From NCBI GenBank assembly GCA_016098155.1, contig JAAAJB010000017.1:67087-131086 (forward strand): 64,000 nt of DNA, read 5' to 3'. A program made the position numbers and the translations under genes. The DNA is from Actinomortierella ambigua. Lineage: Eukaryota > Mortierellomycota > Mortierellomycetes > Mortierellales > Mortierellaceae. Under the pieces are notes generated by a model. That model was not told where the DNA came from, searched no databases, and was given only the letters and a program-made list of their open reading frames with translations. Below, piece after piece: positions 10,022-62,900 of this stretch (the first letter of the stretch is position 1; each line of letters begins with the position of its first letter).

Positions 10022-10716
10022 GTTGTTCTTCCTCACCTTTTGTCCTTAAAAACCCCCATTTCTCATTTAGATGGGAGTGAGGAGTTTGGAGATATAGAGA
10101 ACTAACAAAGGGAATGCGCAGAGCGAGCGAGCGAGCGAGGGGTAGATTGCAATGGGGACTAGAAAGTCTCCTCTCTCCGAAAGCGCACAATGAGAATCTC
10201 TGTTGGATTCCGGCCTCGGCCATCTATTGTTTTCTCTCTCTCTGCTGGCATGCACGGCCCAGTCTCCTTTTTCTCTGGACATCTTGGTCCTCTCCAACAA
10301 CATACAGACATACATACACGCATATTGCATCAGATACTCACGAGAGTTGGGAGAGTAGATAGACTAAAAAACTTGCATCTGAAATCACGCATGTGCGCGA
10401 CATCTACTACCTAACCCGCCTGTAAAGCTATGCTCCGTGCCTCTCTACTCTATTGAATTGAGGATTATCATTGCCACAAAGAAACTCTTGTCTGTCTTTT
10501 CTCTCTTTCTCTTCTTCTTCTTCTTCTTCCCCTTCTTCTTCTTTCTTCTCTTCGCGCTTTCGTCAATCCCCCCTTCCTCGTCTTCCACCACTACCACCAC
10601 TACCACCACTACCTCAGATCATTGATTTCCCATTCTCAAAATCCCCTTCCCCCTTTCCCCCCTTCCCTTTCACGACTCGCATACAGTCAGCCTCCCTCCC
10701 TCCTTCATTGAAAACC
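9488..10716. promoter_or_regulatory. Long upstream region of the Lys/His repeat gene
   Basis: No gene is seen in these 1.2 kb. A TATAAATATAAA sequence lies at about 9966-9977, followed by a (TC)n run to 10021. Strongly pyrimidine-rich leader sequence (CTT and CTA/CCA triplet runs, 10500-10700) leads to the ATG at 10717. The TATA-to-ATG distance (about 740 bases) would need a long leader or a leader intron. Confidence 0.4.
9999..10021. repeat. (TC)n microsatellite
   Basis: A near-perfect TC dinucleotide run lies just downstream of an AT-rich TATA-like sequence, in noncoding DNA. Confidence 0.8.
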
Positions 10717-12141
10717 ATGCGTTTCATTCTCTCGGCTCTCCTAGCCACCGCGCTTCTTGGCGTCATGGCGACGGCGGATGTCCACGCTGGCCAAGCTCAA
10801 GGTGGTCAGGCAGCGTTCCGTCTGGAGCCGCGCCAATTGCGCAACCACAAGGCTCATCATCGCACACATAAGAGCGCGCATAAGACGCCAAAGGGCGCTC
10901 AGCACAAGAAGAGCGCAAGTGGTGGAAAGCACCACAAGCGTGAGCTGGTCTTTGACCGGCACAACCCTCTGGCAGTGCCTATTGCTGCTGCTGCTGCCGC
11001 AGGAGGTGGCGGTTCGCAGATTGTGTCTGCGCCAGAGGTGCATGCAGGAGTTTACGATGACTCACGCTTCCGCCCACACAACAACCACCACACCCACCAC
11101 GGCGGCAAGAAGAACAAGGGCAAGAAGCATCACGCGAAGAAGGTGCGCAAGCACCGCGCGAAGAAGTCCCACAAGAAGCACTCGAAGCGTGCTCTGGACG
11201 ACCATGCTTCAAAGTCGGCCCATCACAAGGTTCAGAAGAAGAGCCACAAGAAGGGACAGAGTGGCCACAAGAAGCACACGAAGCGTGCTCTGGACGAACA
11301 TGCCCCGAAGGCGGCCCATCACAAGGTGCAGAAGAAGAGCCACAAGAAGGTACAGAGTGGTCACAAGAAGCACACGAAGCGCGCCCTCGATGAACATGCC
11401 CCAAAGGCGGCCCATCACAAGATTCAAGCGAAGAGCCACAAGAAGGGACAAAGCGGCCACAAGAAGCACACGAAGCGTGCTCTGAACGAGCATTCCCCAA
11501 AGGCGGCCCACCACAAGGTGCAGAAGAAGAGCCACAAGAAGGTACAGAGTGGTCACAAGAAGCACACGAAGCGTGCTCTGGACGAGCACTCCTCGAAGGC
11601 GGCCCATCGCAAGGTTCAAGTGAAGAGCCACAAGAAGGGACAGAGTGGCCACAAGAAGCACACGAAGCGCGCTCTGGACAAAGATGCCCCGAAGGCGATC
11701 CATCGCAAGGTTCGCAAGATCCACAAGAAGGGAAAAGTCGGCCACAAGAAGCAGAGTGGTGGTGGACATAAAAAGTTGAACAAGAAGCACCAAAAGCGCG
11801 AGCTGAAGGAGCCGAAAATCGTGTTCCCCTTTGAGACCGAGACCGAGCCAAAGCCGTTGGAGAAGCCGCTGAAGCCGATTGTTGCTGCGGTGGCGCATCA
11901 CAAGGAGGAGTACGAGAAGAAGTTGGTGCAGCAGCCGGAGGCGAAGAAGGACAAGAAGAAGGTGAAGAAGGTGAAGAAGGTGATGAAGGTGGAGAAGATC
12001 GAGAAGAAGGACCATGACGAGGTTGCCAAGAAGGTGGACGAGGAGTTGGACCTGCACAAGAAGAGTCACCACCACCGTCGTTCCGTACAAAAGGCCTCGC
12101 ACAAGAAGAAGGCTCAATCTCATCACAAGAAGGGAAAGTAG
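10717..12141 (+). CDS. Secreted Lys/His-rich repeat preproprotein (Kex2-processed type)
   Basis: One exon, 474 residues. The ATG at 10717 is chosen over an upstream in-frame ATG at 10471 because it starts a clean signal peptide (MRFILSALLATALLGVMATA) and the upstream part is leader-like CT repeats. The mature chain is extremely basic (Lys, His). Its centre (11191-11766) is six 32-residue repeats, each starting ALD(E/D/N)H and ending HTKR or a variant. A Lys-Arg pair closes nearly every unit, and further KR/RR pairs flank the block (HHKREL, HQKREL, HHHRRSV). Repeats separated by dibasic sites behind a signal peptide are the hallmark of fungal Kex2-processed repeat proteins (KEPs), the class that includes alpha-factor-like pheromones and repellents. 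The released peptides would be cationic and histidine-rich, suggesting metal binding, wall/polyanion binding or antimicrobial activity (inference). No enzyme domain is visible. Confidence 0.85.
   Translation: MRFILSALLATALLGVMATADVHAGQAQGGQAAFRLEPRQLRNHKAHHRTHKSAHKTPKGAQHKKSASGGKHHKRELVFDRHNPLAVPIAAAAAAGGGGSQIVSAPEVHAGVYDDSRFRPHNNHHTHHGGKKNKGKKHHAKKVRKHRAKKSHKKHSKRALDDHASKSAHHKVQKKSHKKGQSGHKKHTKRALDEHAPKAAHHKVQKKSHKKVQSGHKKHTKRALDEHAPKAAHHKIQAKSHKKGQSGHKKHTKRALNEHSPKAAHHKVQKKSHKKVQSGHKKHTKRALDEHSSKAAHRKVQVKSHKKGQSGHKKHTKRALDKDAPKAIHRKVRKIHKKGKVGHKKQSGGGHKKLNKKHQKRELKEPKIVFPFETETEPKPLEKPLKPIVAAVAHHKEEYEKKLVQQPEAKKDKKKVKKVKKVMKVEKIEKKDHDEVAKKVDEELDLHKKSHHHRRSVQKASHKKKAQSHHKKGK
11191..11766 (+). 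repeat. Six tandem 96-bp coding repeats
   Basis: Repeat starts fall exactly 96 bases apart at 11191, 11287, 11383, 11479, 11575 and 11671. The first five are close copies; the sixth is degenerate in its second half. Third-base differences between units show that they are not brand-new duplications. Each unit encodes 32 residues. Confidence 0.92.
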
Positions 12142-13881
12142 ACCATCCCCACAAAAAAAAAATGAAAAAGTGAAGGTGCCCTGGATCTCACACCCTTGAT
12201 ACCATCCTTAATCCCTTTCCCTTTCTTTATGGGAACTACTTTCTAAAGACCACAAAAAAAAATAGCAAACATTCCCAATTCTTCATTCATTCTCCCCACC
12301 CCCCCTTTTTTTTTACTTTTTCGCTTTCTGTATACTTTTTTTTCCACTCAAAAGAAACTTGGGTATTCGTTCTCTACTTTTTTTTTTGTTTCCTCTGTTT
12401 CCTTTTCCCAATTTCTACATGACCTTTCTTTTTTGTATATAATTCTTCTTCCGTCCCCTCCATTCACCCTCTGAAAGGTTCTGTAGAAACACGAGAAAGA
12501 ACCGGGGATTCCCTTGCTTTCACCCTCTCCACTTTTTCTTCTTTGCACTCATAAAGAAGGAGAGCACGAGCGAGGGGCAGCAATAGAGATGACACCCTTC
12601 TTGTTCTAATATGAAAACAATAAAATGCCTCTTCCATCAGTCAGAACAAATTGGGTGACGAGAGTAGAGGGGGTGGAAGGGGGTTTTTGATCTGTGAGTT
12701 GGAATATGGAATAGCTTGATGAGAGTGTGGGATGGTAGGAGTCGCTTCTTTTTTTTTTTTTTTTTTTGCCGAGGTTATCTCCAGAACAGCAGCATCGCAT
12801 ATGCATGTGGACATGTTTGCTTTGCTGGGATACATGCGCCCACTGTCGACGCAACACAGCATTTTCGAGAACGTCATATTGCAAGCAGGCGAGTATTCGA
12901 GCATTCAGCAGCTGCACGGGAATCGTCCAGAGTATGTCATAGCTCTTCTTGTGTTCGACAGCAGTAGCTTTGCCCACTGTCGATGGCGATGTACCACCTC
13001 GCTTTTGTTATCTTGCTCTGTCCCTTCAAATCACCCAGTGTAGCTAGGACGCTATGCGTTGGGCCGAGATCACATGACCTGCGAACTCCAGCGGTTGTTT
13101 AATAGGTAAGTTTGCCGTACTGCGATTGCTCCCTCTTTTCCGAATTACTCGCTAAAATGGCAAGTGGATGCGAAAAGGGGCATCCATAGCCAAAGAGACA
13201 CAGAGAGAGACATCCAACCATCCATCGATCTATCCCGGCGACCATCCATCAGCAAACATCGCTTTCCATCGTCCCGTCACCATACCAACCCTAACCAACT
13301 ATCCGACCCGTCCGACCCTCGACTTTGCACTTTTTTTTTCTTTGCGGATTCACCTATTTTCCATGCATCAGGGAGGACCCATCATCAAGTCGCAGGAAGG
13401 GAAACGAAGGAAGGAAGGACCGACTGACGGACGGAGGAGGTCTCAGCCAAACCCAAAGGCGCACTCAAGAAGGCCGCTGTCTGTGTCGGAAGAGAGAGAG
13501 AAAGAGAAACGGCCTCGAGTTTGTGCAAGGGCTAGGCGAACCTCTGATCCACCCCCATCCAAGACGGGACAAGGAGGCGACTACAAAAGCAGACCAATCA
13601 TGGCATCACCAACATCAATCACCTAATGCCTCAACAAGTGCCTCCAACCTTGCAACCCCCTCTCTAGTTCTTTGGAAAGGACATCACGGATGTGCGGATG
13701 GAATCTGTCAACAGCTCTTGGTGGAACTCTTGTCTCTTTGGCTATGGACCCCCCAACCCCTCCCCCAACCTACACTGTCAAAGTCGAACAGGTTCAAAGG
13801 AGCAACTCGGAAAGACCGCTAACCAGCCATACGGGGAACCTATCTTTCTGTCCCACCCTCTATTTCTTATGGACCTTATAG
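12142..13881. other. Intergenic region and unresolved leader/exon 1 of eL14
   Basis: The first 500 bases are 3' UTR-like (poly-A and poly-T runs). The missing first coding exon of the eL14 gene should lie in the last 800 bases. Candidate ATGs there (for example 13157, 13361, 13594) do not give a short exon ending at a strong donor in the right phase, so I leave it open. One GTAAGT donor sits at about 13106. An open frame at about 12800-13043 has no recognisable homology. Confidence 0.4.
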
Positions 13882-26115: not shown

Positions 26116-28640
26116 AATGGAGTCCTTCGACCAATTGAATAATGTTGTGGAGTTTGATTTCCTTACATATGCCTCATTTTAACTATCGTTTATCAAGATT
26201 GAAAATTAGCATGAAGTCTTTCAAGGAGTTCGTACTTAACGACACTCATGGGCATACCGCATTTGAGAGGATGTATTCCTGTCTTGTGGCAAGTATTGGC
26301 CGGGCAAGGCGATGAGACTGCGAGGCAATTTAGGCTTGACGTCAATCAGTGTCGAAAGGAGTACCACGAGATGCTTGTACAAGGAAACATTAGTTGCTCT
26401 TAGGCGTCAATAGTCTTTTGCTTGGAAACCATCCGACTCAGTTGTGAGTAACCATATGAGAGCAACAAGAGGGCATCCGCACCAACCTTGCCAGAAGGAA
26501 CGGCATTGAATGATCATGAGCTGGCGATTATGGATGAAATGTCGACGTCCATAGCAGTTGAACCTCTGGCCGAAAGAGGTACATATGAAGTTAAATTACT
26601 ATTTGATTGTAATGGGTAAAGCTCTGTTTATGAACTCGTGATTCTCATTGTTATATATATTCTAACTGACTCTTTGATAGCTCTTCGCTGATAGCCTCGA
26701 CACCCCTTGGGCTAGTCACACCGAGTGTTGATGAGGGAGAACGCGCCGAGAATGACTCGAGCCCTGATCCTGGTGACGTCCGTGCCCAAAATAGGTTTCT
26801 TGTAGGCGTGAACGACCCGAGCTCTACAACAAGTAAATCATATAGTGGATCTATGATCGGATTGAAGACTTGCTTTACTAGACGTAGATATCGCTCATGC
26901 GCTTTCTGCAGTTTCTCGACCAACGAAGGGAAAACGAAAGCGAGCGCCAAAAAAAACAGACCAAAGCTGCCTCGATCGCTGAGTCTTCAAAAAGCTAAAC
27001 ACAGGCGCACAGAGCAACGGACAAAAGTGAGTCCAGCGAGTGGAAACAGGGCAGGAAACTAAACCTTTGAGCGTTTTTAATGCTAAAATGACTCAACACT
27101 TCATTTAAATTAGCGCCACGACGATTTGGATGAAACAAAAGTTTTGGAAGTTGACTTCAAGCGGCCGCTGTATGGAAGACGTCTTGTTTGATGCCGCGAT
27201 GAAAGGATGTGCAACTGTCAAGTAAGATCCCACTCCTCCATGTTTGAGCATCCTTTTTTTTTTTTTTTTGGCATTTGTCAACATCGACTCATCTGTATTC
27301 TAAATGCTTCGATAGGATGCGATCATCAGCCAGGTGGTCTTGGTACAAGAGGATATCTTGTCGCGCCTTACATCTGCGTGTGGCTATTCTCATACTAGCC
27401 AAGGACAGATGTGGATCCTCTCCTTCAAAGCTGGCGTTTCTACGACAACGCAGATCTCGAAGCAAAGGTGGATCTTGCAAGTAGGCCAGAGCACTGCTTT
27501 CGGGTCCAAAGCGCGATTTACGTGCTCCAAAAAAGATAAAAACGCGCGAAAAGTACAATCTTTTATTTCACAGGCTTGTGAAAAATCAACCATTGCCAAG
27601 TACAGCGAGTGTGCTCAGCGGTGAGAAGCAGCAACGACAAAGAGTAACAGTGACTCTAGCGATGACTCGTAGTTATATCAACCATTGCAGCGATGCTTCA
27701 TGTATGCCCCGGCTCTCTGCAGCTCCCCAGTTCAATCAGATAGTGACTATTGGTGAAGACTTACTTATTCATTCACTATATTAAAAGTGACAACCATAAA
27801 AAAATAGTGCATTTGAGGAGGAGACCGACTGCGCGGTCCTGCAATGGAAACCCATGATGTTTTTGGATTGCAACATTTGAAGTTATAAAGCTTGTCGCTT
27901 GCATGGCATTGAAACGACGCAACAAAGCGCCTCTACTGCTTAACATGTACAAGAACACAAACAGCCCTTCTGTTAACCATGCGATCTTGGCGAGTATGAG
28001 TGAGGAGTCGAAGCTCTATTAGTATTCAACAAAGTATTGGAAAAGGCAGTAATTGTCGCGTTCTAGTACGAATTCTTACCCTCAGGCGTTCAGCCATTGT
28101 CCAGTGGATGATGGCTTTGGACTATTTCCTACTAAATGTCCGAATTGACTACTAACTCGGATTACTGTTGCGGTCTTCACCCAGCTCACGTTCTCCTAAA
28201 TGGATGAACAGCCCAGCGCTTACTGAATTCTGCTTCAGTACGATAAGAAGCGCCGACAACGAAGGGTCAAAAAGCAACATCTATGAGTGCTAAGCTGGCA
28301 CATGCCAGCTCTTTAGGCTTCATCCTGCCCTGTATTTCTTTCAAATTCGTACCCCGTCTCTCTCCTCCTGTCTCGTGTACCAGCATCATGCTCAAGTTTC
28401 ATCACACCTTTCTTTTTTCTTCAACACCTCCTCTTCCAATTAGCATGCCTTTGAATACTCTCCCTTGATCCTTTTGACTGCGCCATGCACCCTGATCCTT
28501 TTGACCACTTCTTGATCCTCTTGCCCAGTTCTCGAAGTCGAAATGGTAATGGTGACCACCTGATTTTTTTTATTTCTCTCTCTATGCATAAATGGCAACT
28601 CTGGCTGTTGTTTTTTGTCTTCTTTACCATCCTCTTCACG

Positions 28641-58600: not shown

Positions 58601-59422
58601 AGACCAGAGCCATTGAAAATAACAATTCTCCTCTCTCTTCCTTTTTAACTCTTGTGCGTGCGCTCTCTCACTCTCTCTGTCCCTCTATCCTTAAAGATTC
58701 TCTCCTTCCAGCACCTCTCCTCACACACTCCAAAAAAAAAAGTCTGATTAAGAGACGTTACCGGACAGGAGATGGAAGCCATCACTGATCAAGGCGAGCG
58801 ACTGGGCATAGTAACCGCCGACGAGCTCCAGGACAAAGAAGCAGAGGCACAGACAGGTGACAAAGACCAGCTTCTTCTTGTTCTTCTGCGACTCGCCCGT
58901 AATCAACACGCCCTTGCAGGCGATCGGTGGTGGCGTCAAAGGGCGCAACGAGGGTGACCCCTCCTGCGTGAAGCTGCTGTCGCTGCTGCCGCCATTCTTG
59001 TTGGCGGTGGTGCCTTCGCTGGGGATATGGCAGTGGCTGTGTCCATGGCCAGGGTTATGCACATGTGCGTGGTTGTCGTGGCTGTGAGCATCAGTCTTGT
59101 GCGGGTGTGCTGTGTAGATGTCATCATGGCTGCTGCTGCTGTAGTTGTTGTTGTTGCTACCATAGCCACTCAAGACGGTCTGGTTCAACGGCGTCGAGGG
59201 TGGAAGGGCCTCTCTATCCACCACAGGGATCGACGATGTCGGCAACTGGGCCGGTGACAGCTTTGGGGACGACTGAGCAGACGGGACAGGGGACGTCGAG
59301 GGTGAGGTTGTGTAGTTGGCGGCAGACACTGATGATGCCGCTGCGTTTGCTGGAGAGCCAGCCTGGGACTGGCTCGTGGATTCAGCCTTCTTGCTGCTCT
59401 TTCTCTTTCCCTTTGCGCCCAT
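55690..59422 (-). CDS. Zinc/cation diffusion facilitator (CDF, ZnT/Zrc1 type)
   Basis: Five exons on the minus strand: 59422-58762, 57651-57411, 57132-56940, 56530-56468 and 56178-55690, 548 residues. The N-terminal 170 residues form a Ser/Pro/His-rich cytosolic tail. Then come six membrane segments with the CDF zinc site: H217-x3-D221 in SDGFHLLSD (split by intron 1) and H377-x3-D381 in HVIGDLISSV. The loop between TM4 and TM5 is a long His stretch (HGHGHDHGHSHG and more), typical of zinc-moving members. The C-terminal domain (GVSIVHDLHVWNLTVGKPAL) is the ferredoxin-like dimer domain. The protein exchanges zinc for protons, loading the vacuole or secretory organelles. Intron 1 is 1110 bases, the longest in the window. 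Confidence 0.9.
57652..58761 (-). other. Long first intron of the CDF transporter
   Basis: GTAACG..CATATAG. It is rich in short (GAGC/GAGG), TGTC and CACTCT runs on the plus strand. No coding frame or clear RNA gene is seen inside; a GGTGGT run lies at 58550-58572. Confidence 0.6.
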
Positions 59423-61708
59423 GGTGATGGTGAGATGGAATTCGGGAGTGATGGAGGGATGGAGAGACGCTGAAAAAGAGATGTGTGTGTGTGTCGGTGT
59501 GTGATGCGCTCAAGAAAAGGAAACGAACCCAAAAAAGAAGAGCTGAGTGAAAAAATAAAGACTAGCTGATCACCTTCAACAGTCACATGACAAAAATGGT
59601 AGGGAACAAAGAAGAGGTGAAGAAAGGTGGGCCAAGCAGCACGGAACAAAAACCGTGCGAGTGTGTGTGAGGGTGTTAGTGGATGTATGTGTTTCTATAT
59701 CATAGGAAAGGGGTGTGGGAGTTGTATTGTCCTTCATCATTGGATGCCTCTGTTTGTCAAGAAAATGGGGGATGTGGTTCCTCAAAGTTCAAACACCGTC
59801 CCCAACTCCAGTGTCAACATGGTGGATGCATGGCTATTGAGGGGGGGGTGAGCGTGTGGGTCCTGTCAGCCGATGCACTCCATAAGCAGTGGCTCAAAGC
59901 CCTCCACTTTCTTTACTTGACGTGCCAAGAAAAAAAAAGAAAGCACGTCAGTGTTCTTCCCATTTACCTCCATTGCACAAACATTGTTCATACAATAGCG
60001 ATCTGGAGCAGTAACCCGTTTGTTTCTCCAGCGTATCGGGTAGCTCATCCGCCGCCATTTGTATTGTTTATTTTTCACAATAGTAAGCTGCATTACATTA
60101 CAACAAAGGAAGAAAAAGAAGCCCACGTTTGCTCATTGTACAACCTGTCAAAAAAATTGACAGACTTCTGAAACAGCGCCTCTCCCTGTCGTTCATTCTG
60201 CGCTGCGCTTATCTCTTCATTCTACATACAGGTCGGAAGCACACACGCATTACTCCGTCTACCCCATCTGTCCTCCTCTTACTGCACTGTACTCTACTGT
60301 ACTTGGCAGGACCCACGCCCCCCACCCTTCATCCCCACTTGTTGGCGCTTCTCTGATCCCAAAGTCGGAGAAAGAAAAAAAATAACGGCGCCAACTGTCG
60401 TGATGACGACTTTTTCTTTTTCAATCCCACACAAGGCCCGATGCTAAAGCCAGAGCCAAAAAAGACAAACTCTAGACAATCCTAAAGGCAGAAATAAAGT
60501 AGCGTGAAAAAAGGTCGTTATTGTTACTGTTCTTGTCTTCAACGTTGCCTTTTTGTTTGCTGTTGCACACAGACGCCTGATGAAGAGATCTTCGTGGACA
60601 AAGTCACCTTTTCCTCTACGCCGTTCGACCGTTAGCATATTCCCTATGTTTAGCAAGTCGGCTTAGCTACAAGAGTGCGAAATGAAGCTCAAATACAAGA
60701 ATATGGAGAGATAAAACTCGTTTGTGAGGTGTCAAGTCGACTAAGCCATGTATCACACATGTTCAAGAGCACTGGTTGCGCCCTTGACCGAAAAGCTTGT
60801 CCTTGTGGGCACTGCACTGCGGTGACCACCTCCCCTCCCCCATGTTCACTGGATCAGACAGCACCCTCGCCTCCCCCAAAGTAGTAAAGATGAAAAGATG
60901 TCGTGGCAGTCAGCATGCCAGTACAGTACAGAAAGTACAAGGGCGCAAAAATGGGTCGCGATGTGATGCGGATAGGTCACCAGGTGCGACTCCTATGATC
61001 TCTCTCAGAAACACACCTACGGCTTAGTGCCCTTTGGCATATGCCCTCTAGCTCATCTGGGAAGTGGGGGAGGAGGGGGGCCAGACAAACGGTGGCAAAG
61101 ATACCGATCCTCTTTCAGTGAACTTCTATTTGAAGACTCTGGAGGAATTGTAGTGACTTCTACGCGACATGGATTATTGGTGGCACTGGGTGCAATGTGG
61201 TGGCTGAAAGAGTCGACACAGAACAACTTCACAAGCTACAGGATCTACAAGCAAAAAAGTAAAATGTGTGTACGTGATGTGGACACGCACAGGGAGAGAA
61301 AGACGAATTTGAACATAGAATTTGAACGCGACTGGCAGCATGTATCATGGCCGCCATAAAGGCTCATGGTCGGAGCCTCACCTACCAAAACCTGGTCTAT
61401 TGAGGTGTCCGGAACTGGCCCTCTGGACCAAGCCCTGGGTCTTGATCCCCAAGAAGGGAACGTTCTTCGTCTGTGGGTCTGAAACTCGCCCTGAATTTTA
61501 CGTACACACACTTGTCGGTCTGTAGGCTCGTTAAAACGAATATCTAATTGGCTGGAATGCTGATGGTTTGGTCATATAACAACAGAAGAGGGGCCTACAA
61601 GCCTCACAGCCCCCAACTCTGTTTATCTCTCTTTCAGCAACCATCAACATTTCAGGAGCTCGCCTCACCGAGCACGAGAGCCTGACAAGGTCGCTTGCAG
61701 GACTTGCA
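59423..61708. other. 2.3-kb region upstream of the transporter and transposase
   Basis: The first few hundred bases are the CDF promoter/leader. Open frames at 59683-60171 and 61245-61511 have no recognisable family. AT-rich and poly-A segments are scattered. The left end of the DDE transposon may lie between 61000 and 61700, but no inverted terminus was identified. Confidence 0.4.
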
Positions 61709-62900
61709 TTGACTTTTGCGTTCGATTACCATTCGGATATGGATATGCGCTGTTGTCTTTTCGATCCAGATCCAGCGCCTCTTATCGTCATACTTCTTCT
61801 CCTAGAGCAGCAATCGCGTCGCCTGGAACCTCGACTGTCTCTCTATCGTCCAGTCAGCCTCATAGACAGCCTCCTGAAATTCTACTCTCCTGAGCACTTT
61901 AATACTGTCTTGGAGTTGTTCCCGGCTCAGTTCCACACTCTGGCTAATCTGATCGAGAGGCATCCCGTCTTTCAAGCATCGTCCACCGGACAACGTCAAG
62001 TCCCTGTCAAAGACCAGCTCGCAGTCGCTCTCCTGTGCCTCGTCAAATCACAGCCATACGATTCCATCGTCGCCCGATTAGCGATTGATCAAGGGGCTGT
62101 GGTCGAACAAACCTCTCGCTGCGTAAAGGCGATCACCAGCCTTTATGCAAAGTTCATCGTATGCCCAGGTGTCGCGGAGCGACAGGAGACCAGCCAAGCC
62201 TTCGCAAATGCCCATGGGTTCCCAGGATGTGTCGGCGTCATCGATGGCACCACCTTTCCCTTCCGCGCATCGCCCTCCTTTGATTCGTACCGGTGGACGC
62301 CACGCAAGGGCGAGTTTGCCGTAGGGGCCACGGTTGTTTGCGACCATAGGGGGCGGATTCGCCTTTTCAACGTCGGTTACCTCCCCAAGGTCGGCGACAG
62401 TTCGGCCTATGGTTATGCAGAGCTACCAGAGATGCCCGACGTGTTCTTCGATGACGACCAATACCTCCTTGCAGACAATGTGTACCCGTTGCGGCGAAGA
62501 ATCATCACAGGTTTTCGCAAGAAAGAAGTGTCCGAGCCGGCCAACAAGGCTTTCACGGATGCTCAAGCAAGGAGCTCGAGCTGTCATGCTGAACACCATC
62601 GAGCAACTCAAGAAAAAGTTTCAGAGCCTGTCTAGTGTCCCTCTCGACGTGGAGAATGATGACGATATCGATAAAGTCGGTCAGTGGTGCCTTGCTTGTG
62701 CCATCCTTCACAACTTTGCTCTGCTGTGCGATTGGGAGACTGGTGAGCTGCGTGGCGCTTCCAATAACTTTGGTAGGGAAGCGAGTGTACGCTATGAGAT
62801 GCATAAGAGGCACCTGGCTCTAAACCGCAACTATGTGGTCGCCGGAGATACTAGAGCACATGGAGTAGAACGACGCGAGCAGCTCATGGGATTTAGTTAA
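61709..62900 (+). pseudogene. HARBI1/DDE-type transposase, frameshifted
   Basis: Two overlapping frames together make one transposase. The first (61709 to about 62570) has an N-terminal helical part (VPVKDQLAVALLCLVKSQ; YDSIVARLAIDQGAVV), then CVGVIDGTTFPFRAS (first catalytic Asp) and YLLADNVYPLRRRI (second Asp, in the HARBI1-like G/A-D-x-x-Y-P-L position). The second frame (about 62570-62900) continues with MLNTIEQLKKKFQSL (Glu in the third catalytic position), WCLACAILHNFALL and a short C-terminus. A change of frame near 62570, without splice signals around it, cuts the Glu off from the two Asp. The family is PIF/Harbinger-like (DDE_4/HARBI1 fold). The element looks inactive as it stands. 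Confidence 0.7.

Follow-up and report, generated by a model that had tools for sequence, protein, structure and literature searches.

The window, a 64,000-nucleotide stretch of an Actinomortierella ambigua contig, carries on its forward strand an open reading frame (ORF) of 474 codons and a stop (10717-12141 in the ORF listing of the window). The ATG at 10717 is the earliest in frame within an open stretch that starts at 10462. The encoded precursor begins with a leader of signal-peptide type and contains a tandem array, for which TRF reports a period of 96 bp, 6.1 copies, 85% matches and a score of 818 at 11169-11753. ORF, leader and array had all been part of the original prediction and are borne out, the leader by its conservation in all seven members of the family described below. 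The parts of the gene are collected in Table 1.

Beyond residue 22 the chain is very rich in Lys and His, as had been predicted: its 452 residues comprise 110 Lys (24.3%), 65 His (14.4%) and 22 Arg (4.9%), with 35 KK pairs and with neither Cys nor Trp. Pfam assigns no family over threshold to the 474 residues; a CoA_trans match was below threshold (E 0.16) and was rejected. A search by sequence found no solved structure that resembles the precursor. Five models from structure prediction have a mean pLDDT of 49, with values below 50 across nearly the whole array, and helix is modeled only at residues 2-26 and 420-472. The second helix, which is Lys/Glu-rich, is perhaps spurious, and the array is predicted to be disordered and hence accessible. 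The gene appears to be single, as both the whole protein and the leader retrieved only themselves from the source genome (33.8 Mb, 846 contigs). Opposite the repeat lies an antisense ORF (10979-12154, reverse strand) of 391 aa, rich in Ser, Cys and Pro, which most likely just mirrors the AAG/CAC codon bias.

Table 1. Features of the precursor gene and its downstream neighbor (window coordinates).
Feature	Position	Strand	Remarks
Precursor gene	10717..12141	+	474 aa + stop; no Pfam family above threshold
Putative signal peptide, residues 1-20	10717..10776	+	AxA/D-or-N motif; cleavage point placed by eye
Short conserved propeptide, residues 21-39, ending F-x-L-E-x-R	10777..10833	+	F34, L36, E37, R39 invariant in 7/7
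First basic/His segment, residues 40-75, KR end	10834..10941	+	R75 invariant in 7/7 as KR or RR
Segment 76-158: VPIA stretch, then basic run ending in array-opening KR	10942..11190	+	
Repeat unit 1, 32 aa, KR end	11191..11286	+	
Repeat unit 2, 32 aa, KR end	11287..11382	+	
Repeat unit 3, 32 aa, KR end	11383..11478	+	
Repeat unit 4, 32 aa, KR end	11479..11574	+	
Repeat unit 5, 32 aa, KR end	11575..11670	+	
Divergent unit 6, 43 aa, KR end	11671..11799	+	
C-terminal segment, 113 aa, more acidic residues	11800..12138	+	RR at residues 454-455
Downstream neighbor, matches to the RPL14 part of P0007	13882..15138	+	tblastn; first RPL14 exon not located

The tandem array and its basic pairs

The KR pairs of the precursor begin at residues 74, 157, 189, 221, 253, 285, 317 and 360. 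Six of them follow each other at intervals of exactly 32 residues, or 96 bp, and so delimit five complete units; the next unit is diverged, with 43 residues. The expectation that KR closes the units held, also for unit 6; that of six repeats spaced exactly 96 bp holds for five, the sixth being divergent and longer. KR pairs are no more frequent than composition provides (8, against 5.4 on shuffling; p = 0.14), so their number alone proves nothing and was not used as evidence. The [KR]R sites do exceed chance in their sequence context, in the persistence of this context in relatives and in their regular placement.

Comparison of the five exact units in all ten pairs gave a mean pS of 0.35 and a mean pN of 0.067, as pairwise values without a term for gene conversion. 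In the same units the Arg codon of the closing KR varies only between CGT and CGC, and the preceding Lys codon is invariant. The units are under purifying selection as protein, because pN is far below pS and the closing Arg codon changes only synonymously. Gly and Val alternate at unit position 22, which suggests growth of the array by double units. A peptide of about 30 aa from each exact unit would carry 7-8 Lys/Arg and 5-6 His, with 1-2 residues that are acidic.

A leader family in Mortierellaceae and its site code

When the whole protein was searched against 5.8 billion proteins, none of the 7996 candidates that were scored reached E <= 0.001, probably because low-complexity words crowded the candidate list. 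Residues 1-130 as the query led to proteins of Mortierella sp. GBA30 (P0002, E 1.9e-3) and M. alpina (E 0.11). This direct similarity of the window leader is weak, and the other relatives were reached via P0002, whose residues 1-75 match proteins of Dissophora globulifera, Modicella reniformis, Linnemannia gamsii and L. zychae (E 4e-18 to 4e-11); M. alpina is absent from the latter matches. The family as used here, the window protein and six relatives, was assembled by the leader only; more distant members, or much longer or shorter ones, may exist, and some of the public gene models of the relatives may be wrong. The genera of all six relatives belong to Mortierellaceae, a family common in soil and in association with roots.

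Alignment of the seven N-termini reveals 19 invariant columns, which include the core of the signal peptide, F34, L36, E37, R39 and R75. The AxA/D-or-N cleavage motif and the F-x-L-E-x-R propeptide are common to all seven members, and processing at R39 of the propeptide is possible. R75 is the second residue of the KR or RR that ends the first basic segment of every member. The Lys content ranges from 11 to 24% and the His content from 5 to 19%. The best self-match falls at 32 residues in the window protein (36% of positions) and at 44 in M. alpina (39%). Weaker self-matches are seen at 45 residues in Dissophora (23%), at 8 in L. zychae (21%, then 38 and 43) and at 38 in GBA30 (17%), and a clear period is absent from L. 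gamsii (17% at 13) and Modicella (11%). The original prediction had named relatives that keep the repeats and lose the KR pairs as an outcome that would speak against it. This was mostly not seen: by eye, M. alpina has KK at a single unit boundary, with KR at the neighboring ones, and Modicella and L. gamsii, which have no clear repeat, are uninformative. The motif H[RH]K, with 12 matches in the family against 0.36 expected on shuffling, was tried as a tie between the repeats of the window protein and those of the relatives. It was rejected, as 11 of the 12 matches lie in relatives and the one of the window protein (residue 391) is outside the array.

Pfam finds no family in five of the six relatives. 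In the sixth, the L. zychae model P0007 (FBU30_000699), it finds only the RPL14 domains (PF01929/PF00467) to which the family protein is fused; the fusion is probably an annotation error. RPL14 matches begin about 1.7 kb downstream of the precursor gene in the window, on the same strand, which shows that the precursor-RPL14 neighborhood is common to the window and L. zychae, the two that the comparison covered.

The basic pairs of the family differ in what follows them. The pattern [KR]R-x-[LIVM] is present at 34 of 45 KR/RR sites in the seven members, compared with the same context at 7 of 95 KK sites (Fisher p 3e-16; neither the sites nor the relatives are independent, so this and the p values below are too small, with a clear direction). 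The relatives alone give 25/36 against 5/62 (p 3e-10), and in the window protein all nine sites conform. Elsewhere in the family the x-[LIVM] context follows none of 31 RK sites and 249 of 1913 residues overall; 5000 shuffles gave a mean count of 5.1 and a maximum of 14. Nine long stop-to-stop ORFs of the window, hand-picked as likely genes, served as controls and show the signature at 8 of 44 KR/RR sites (Fisher p 4e-8). If each four-residue context is counted once per protein, 32 of 42 [KR]R sites have it. The counts by relative are 5/7 (P0002), 6/8 (P0003), 4/4 (P0004), 3/8 (P0005), 2/3 (P0006) and 5/6 (P0007); P0005 and P0006 fit the site code poorly, and neither has a clear repeat.

Acidic residues are also unevenly distributed. 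At least one occurs within P1'-P4' of 8 of 9 KR/RR sites in the window protein versus 3 of 32 KK sites, and of 26/45 versus 25/92 in the family, the KK totals leaving out a few sites near C-termini. By position, the family has an acidic P1' at 14/45 KR/RR and 3/92 KK sites, and an acidic P2' at 0/45 and 19/92, respectively. Cleaved Kex2 sites are described, in a passage of PMC2515848, as enriched at P1'/P2' in acidic and small residues (Ala, Val, Leu), with basic residues underrepresented. The eight KR sites of the window protein are followed by AL (six) or EL (two) and fit this rule, while the absence of acidic residues from P2' of KR/RR sites contradicts part of the published preference.

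Probable processing of the precursor and the alternative readings

The precursor is probably a Kex2-processed repeat protein (KEP), whatever its function. The original prediction of such a precursor gains support from the x-aliphatic context at the [KR]R sites of relatives, from the synonymous-only change of the Arg codon and from kexin and S10 sequences in the genome. One genome ORF combines S8 and P_proprotein domains, with a hydrophobic run after the P-domain as seen by eye. The contig of this ORF has two more P-domain matches at a distance of about 4.4 kb (including C9:43599-43968), one of them with an internal stop. These two are probably two exons of a single gene, and the P-domain matches 4.4 kb apart perhaps represent two tandem kexin genes. 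Candidates for Kex1 are the matches to its family, the S10 carboxypeptidases, on four contigs.

From these elements we infer secretion, cleavage and trimming, and likewise every step of function. The signal peptide would direct the chain into the ER, kexin would cut the largely disordered chain after the KR/RR sites that bear the x-aliphatic context, and the trimming of basic ends would fall to a Kex1-like carboxypeptidase. The release would be of about five near-identical peptides of about 30 residues (of the type ALDEHAPKAAHHKVQKKSHKKVQSGHKKHT), a longer sixth and the flanking peptides. The KK pairs inside the units could be cut too, which would yield smaller peptides.

In its repeats, the precursor agrees with a published definition of KEPs. 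This definition, of Le Marquer 2019, as given in a passage of PMC6339444, comprises at least four KR/RR fragments of which at least three are similar, repeats over at least 15% of the length, a signal peptide and no membrane segment. Judged from its sequence, the precursor has eight KR and one RR, five near-identical 32-aa units that make up about 34% of its length (5 x 32 of 474 residues) and a leader conserved in 7/7 members with the AxA/D-or-N motif, this last judged from sequence and conservation. The genome supplies the Kex2 protease in the form of the S8 and P_proprotein ORF, by sequence. The definition of Umemura 2020 calls for three or more repeats, each of 8-100 aa, between basic pairs, and counts KK and RK as well (PMC7329392, in part). 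By its site positions, the precursor would agree with it if the sites are KR/RR; KK and RK sites would split the units further.

Were the protein instead to stay whole, as a disordered basic protein of the surface or wall, the KR pairs would be a by-product of Lys-rich repeats. We regard this as unlikely, although composition alone would account for as many KR pairs and the 35 KK pairs attest to the Lys-richness. Passages of PMC2515848 add that Kex2 leaves some good-looking sites uncut and cite a yeast Pir4 mutant that was unprocessed after KR/D was changed to KR/A, the form in which six of the eight KR sites of the window protein read. A by-product of Lys-richness would not readily account for a context that marks KR/RR and is missing at KK sites, also in relatives with other repeats, nor for an Arg codon that changes only synonymously; the predicted disorder would, in addition, make the array accessible. 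An artefact is very improbable, whether through an intron at 10940-11002 (+) or through a DNA satellite that happens to read as an ORF. The 63 nt of this stretch are in frame, run GTGAGC...CAG with GT..AG ends that look canonical by eye, and have no counterpart in P0006; five of the six relatives, however, align with the [DNE]-L...VP-like sequence encoded here, and an intron is unlikely. Even with such an intron, the frame, the KR pairs and the array would be unaffected, and both the low pN relative to pS and the leader conserved in six other proteins argue against the artefact.

Within the KEP reading, the question turns to what the peptides would do. Conservation extends to the leader, the site code and the general character of the cargo, which is basic and usually His-rich, but not to its exact sequence. 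As the sequence changes while Lys and His stay high, a bulk physicochemical role is favored over that of a receptor ligand, with antimicrobial action as an almost equal rival. Our working guess, which we hold with reserve and would not call the likely answer, is that the peptides, once released, act at the hyphal surface as polycations to which anionic polymers or metal ions bind. Antimicrobial peptides against soil competitors, a reading that overlaps with that of a KEP and that we rate as somewhat unlikely, would be cationic, His-rich and histatin-like. The charge of the units and the drift of the cargo between genera at sustained Lys and His are what such peptides would show, whereas the array is modeled as disordered and not helical, and Pfam supplies no family beyond the RPL14 domains of P0007. 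Moreover, KEP peptides of Coprinopsis were assayed for inhibition of bacterial growth, and the passages of PMC9769878 report no specific function. A signal or pheromone with its receptor is highly unlikely. The general layout is common to alpha-factor precursors (PMC6339444, in part), but the sequence is not conserved across genera, the units are longer than the 9-24 aa of the alpha-pheromone class in the same source, and none of the eight KR sites is followed by the XA/XP start of Ste13-type processing.

Beyond the single precursor, we propose tentatively, at somewhat less than an even chance, that Mortierellaceae keep beside RPL14 a chassis for peptide delivery, in which leader, propeptide and cleavage code would be retained and the tandem Lys/His-rich cargo replaced in each genus, so that polycationic and possibly metal-loading peptides specific to the lineage would be secreted. 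If a fixed leader and site code with changing cargo is true, the released peptides would be predictable from sequence and could be found by mass spectrometry, and the family would be a test case for the turnover of repeat precursors.

Known repeat precursors and the rest of the window

The precursor is ordinary in kind and new in cargo. It shares with KEPs a leader that resembles a signal peptide, three or more similar fragments flanked by KR/RR, exact units over about one third of the protein and a kexin sequence in the genome. It differs in its very Lys/His-rich cargo, in a common leader combined with genus-specific repeats and in the marked x-aliphatic rule. The Tyr-containing core of cyclised KEPs (ustiloxin-like RiPPs) is absent, as Tyr occurs twice in the 452 residues and in none of the six units. 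PF11807 (UstYa/DUF3328) gave no match in the whole genome or in any of 14 controls, a negative of little weight.

The comparisons with individual systems draw on passages of the cited papers, and the differences are by description. Rep1 of Ustilago maydis likewise has Kex2 sites between repeats of similar length in a single precursor and a longer C-terminal product (PMC4617103, PMC2515848); its peptides of 35-53 aa are amphipathic and form amyloid-like fibrils on hyphae, whereas those predicted here are hydrophilic, highly charged and disordered. Hum3 of U. maydis has repeats of 31-36 aa with putative Kex2 motifs, and Rsp1 has hydrophilic repeats of 18/21 aa with such motifs (PMC4617103); Hum3 carries a hydrophobin domain, and the window protein has no Pfam domain. 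The SP7 family of Rhizophagus irregularis and GpRIC of Geosiphon are also secreted proteins with repeats or biased composition and with [KR]R sites, from early-diverging fungi (PMC5293756, PMC8786786). The SP7 repeats are shorter (6-16 and 7-8 aa) and the proteins locate to the host nucleus (PMC4617103), and GpRIC are relatives of Gly/Asn-rich proteins (PMC8786786). CaEce1 of Candida albicans, a secreted polypeptide precursor as well, is cut by Kex2 in vitro and has seven repeats that the source calls less conserved (PMC2515848).

The expectation that the products differ from those of known KEPs thus fails for length, given Rep1, Hum3 and the larger peptides known for Mucoromycota KEPs (PMC6339444, in part). 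For composition it may stand: the Lys/His-richness does look unusual against the few described examples. No literature on such peptides of Mortierellaceae was found; the main texts of two KEP surveys do not name Mortierella, which their supplementary tables may list. Titles, abstract openings and passages on His- or Lys-rich Kex2 peptides and on Mortierella antimicrobial peptides likewise yielded nothing on this precursor family.

Elsewhere in the window, ARAGORN with the bacterial code found no tRNA, and the sole Rfam match is an isolated 155-base segment of eukaryotic LSU rRNA (RF02543, 91.5 bits) at 28154-28308 on the reverse strand. An ORF at 61580-62635 (+) encodes a protein that resembles a transposase of the Harbinger/DDE type. 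The ORF at 58748-59509 (-) has a His-rich stretch and a membrane-like segment and, by eye, resembles a cation-efflux transporter.
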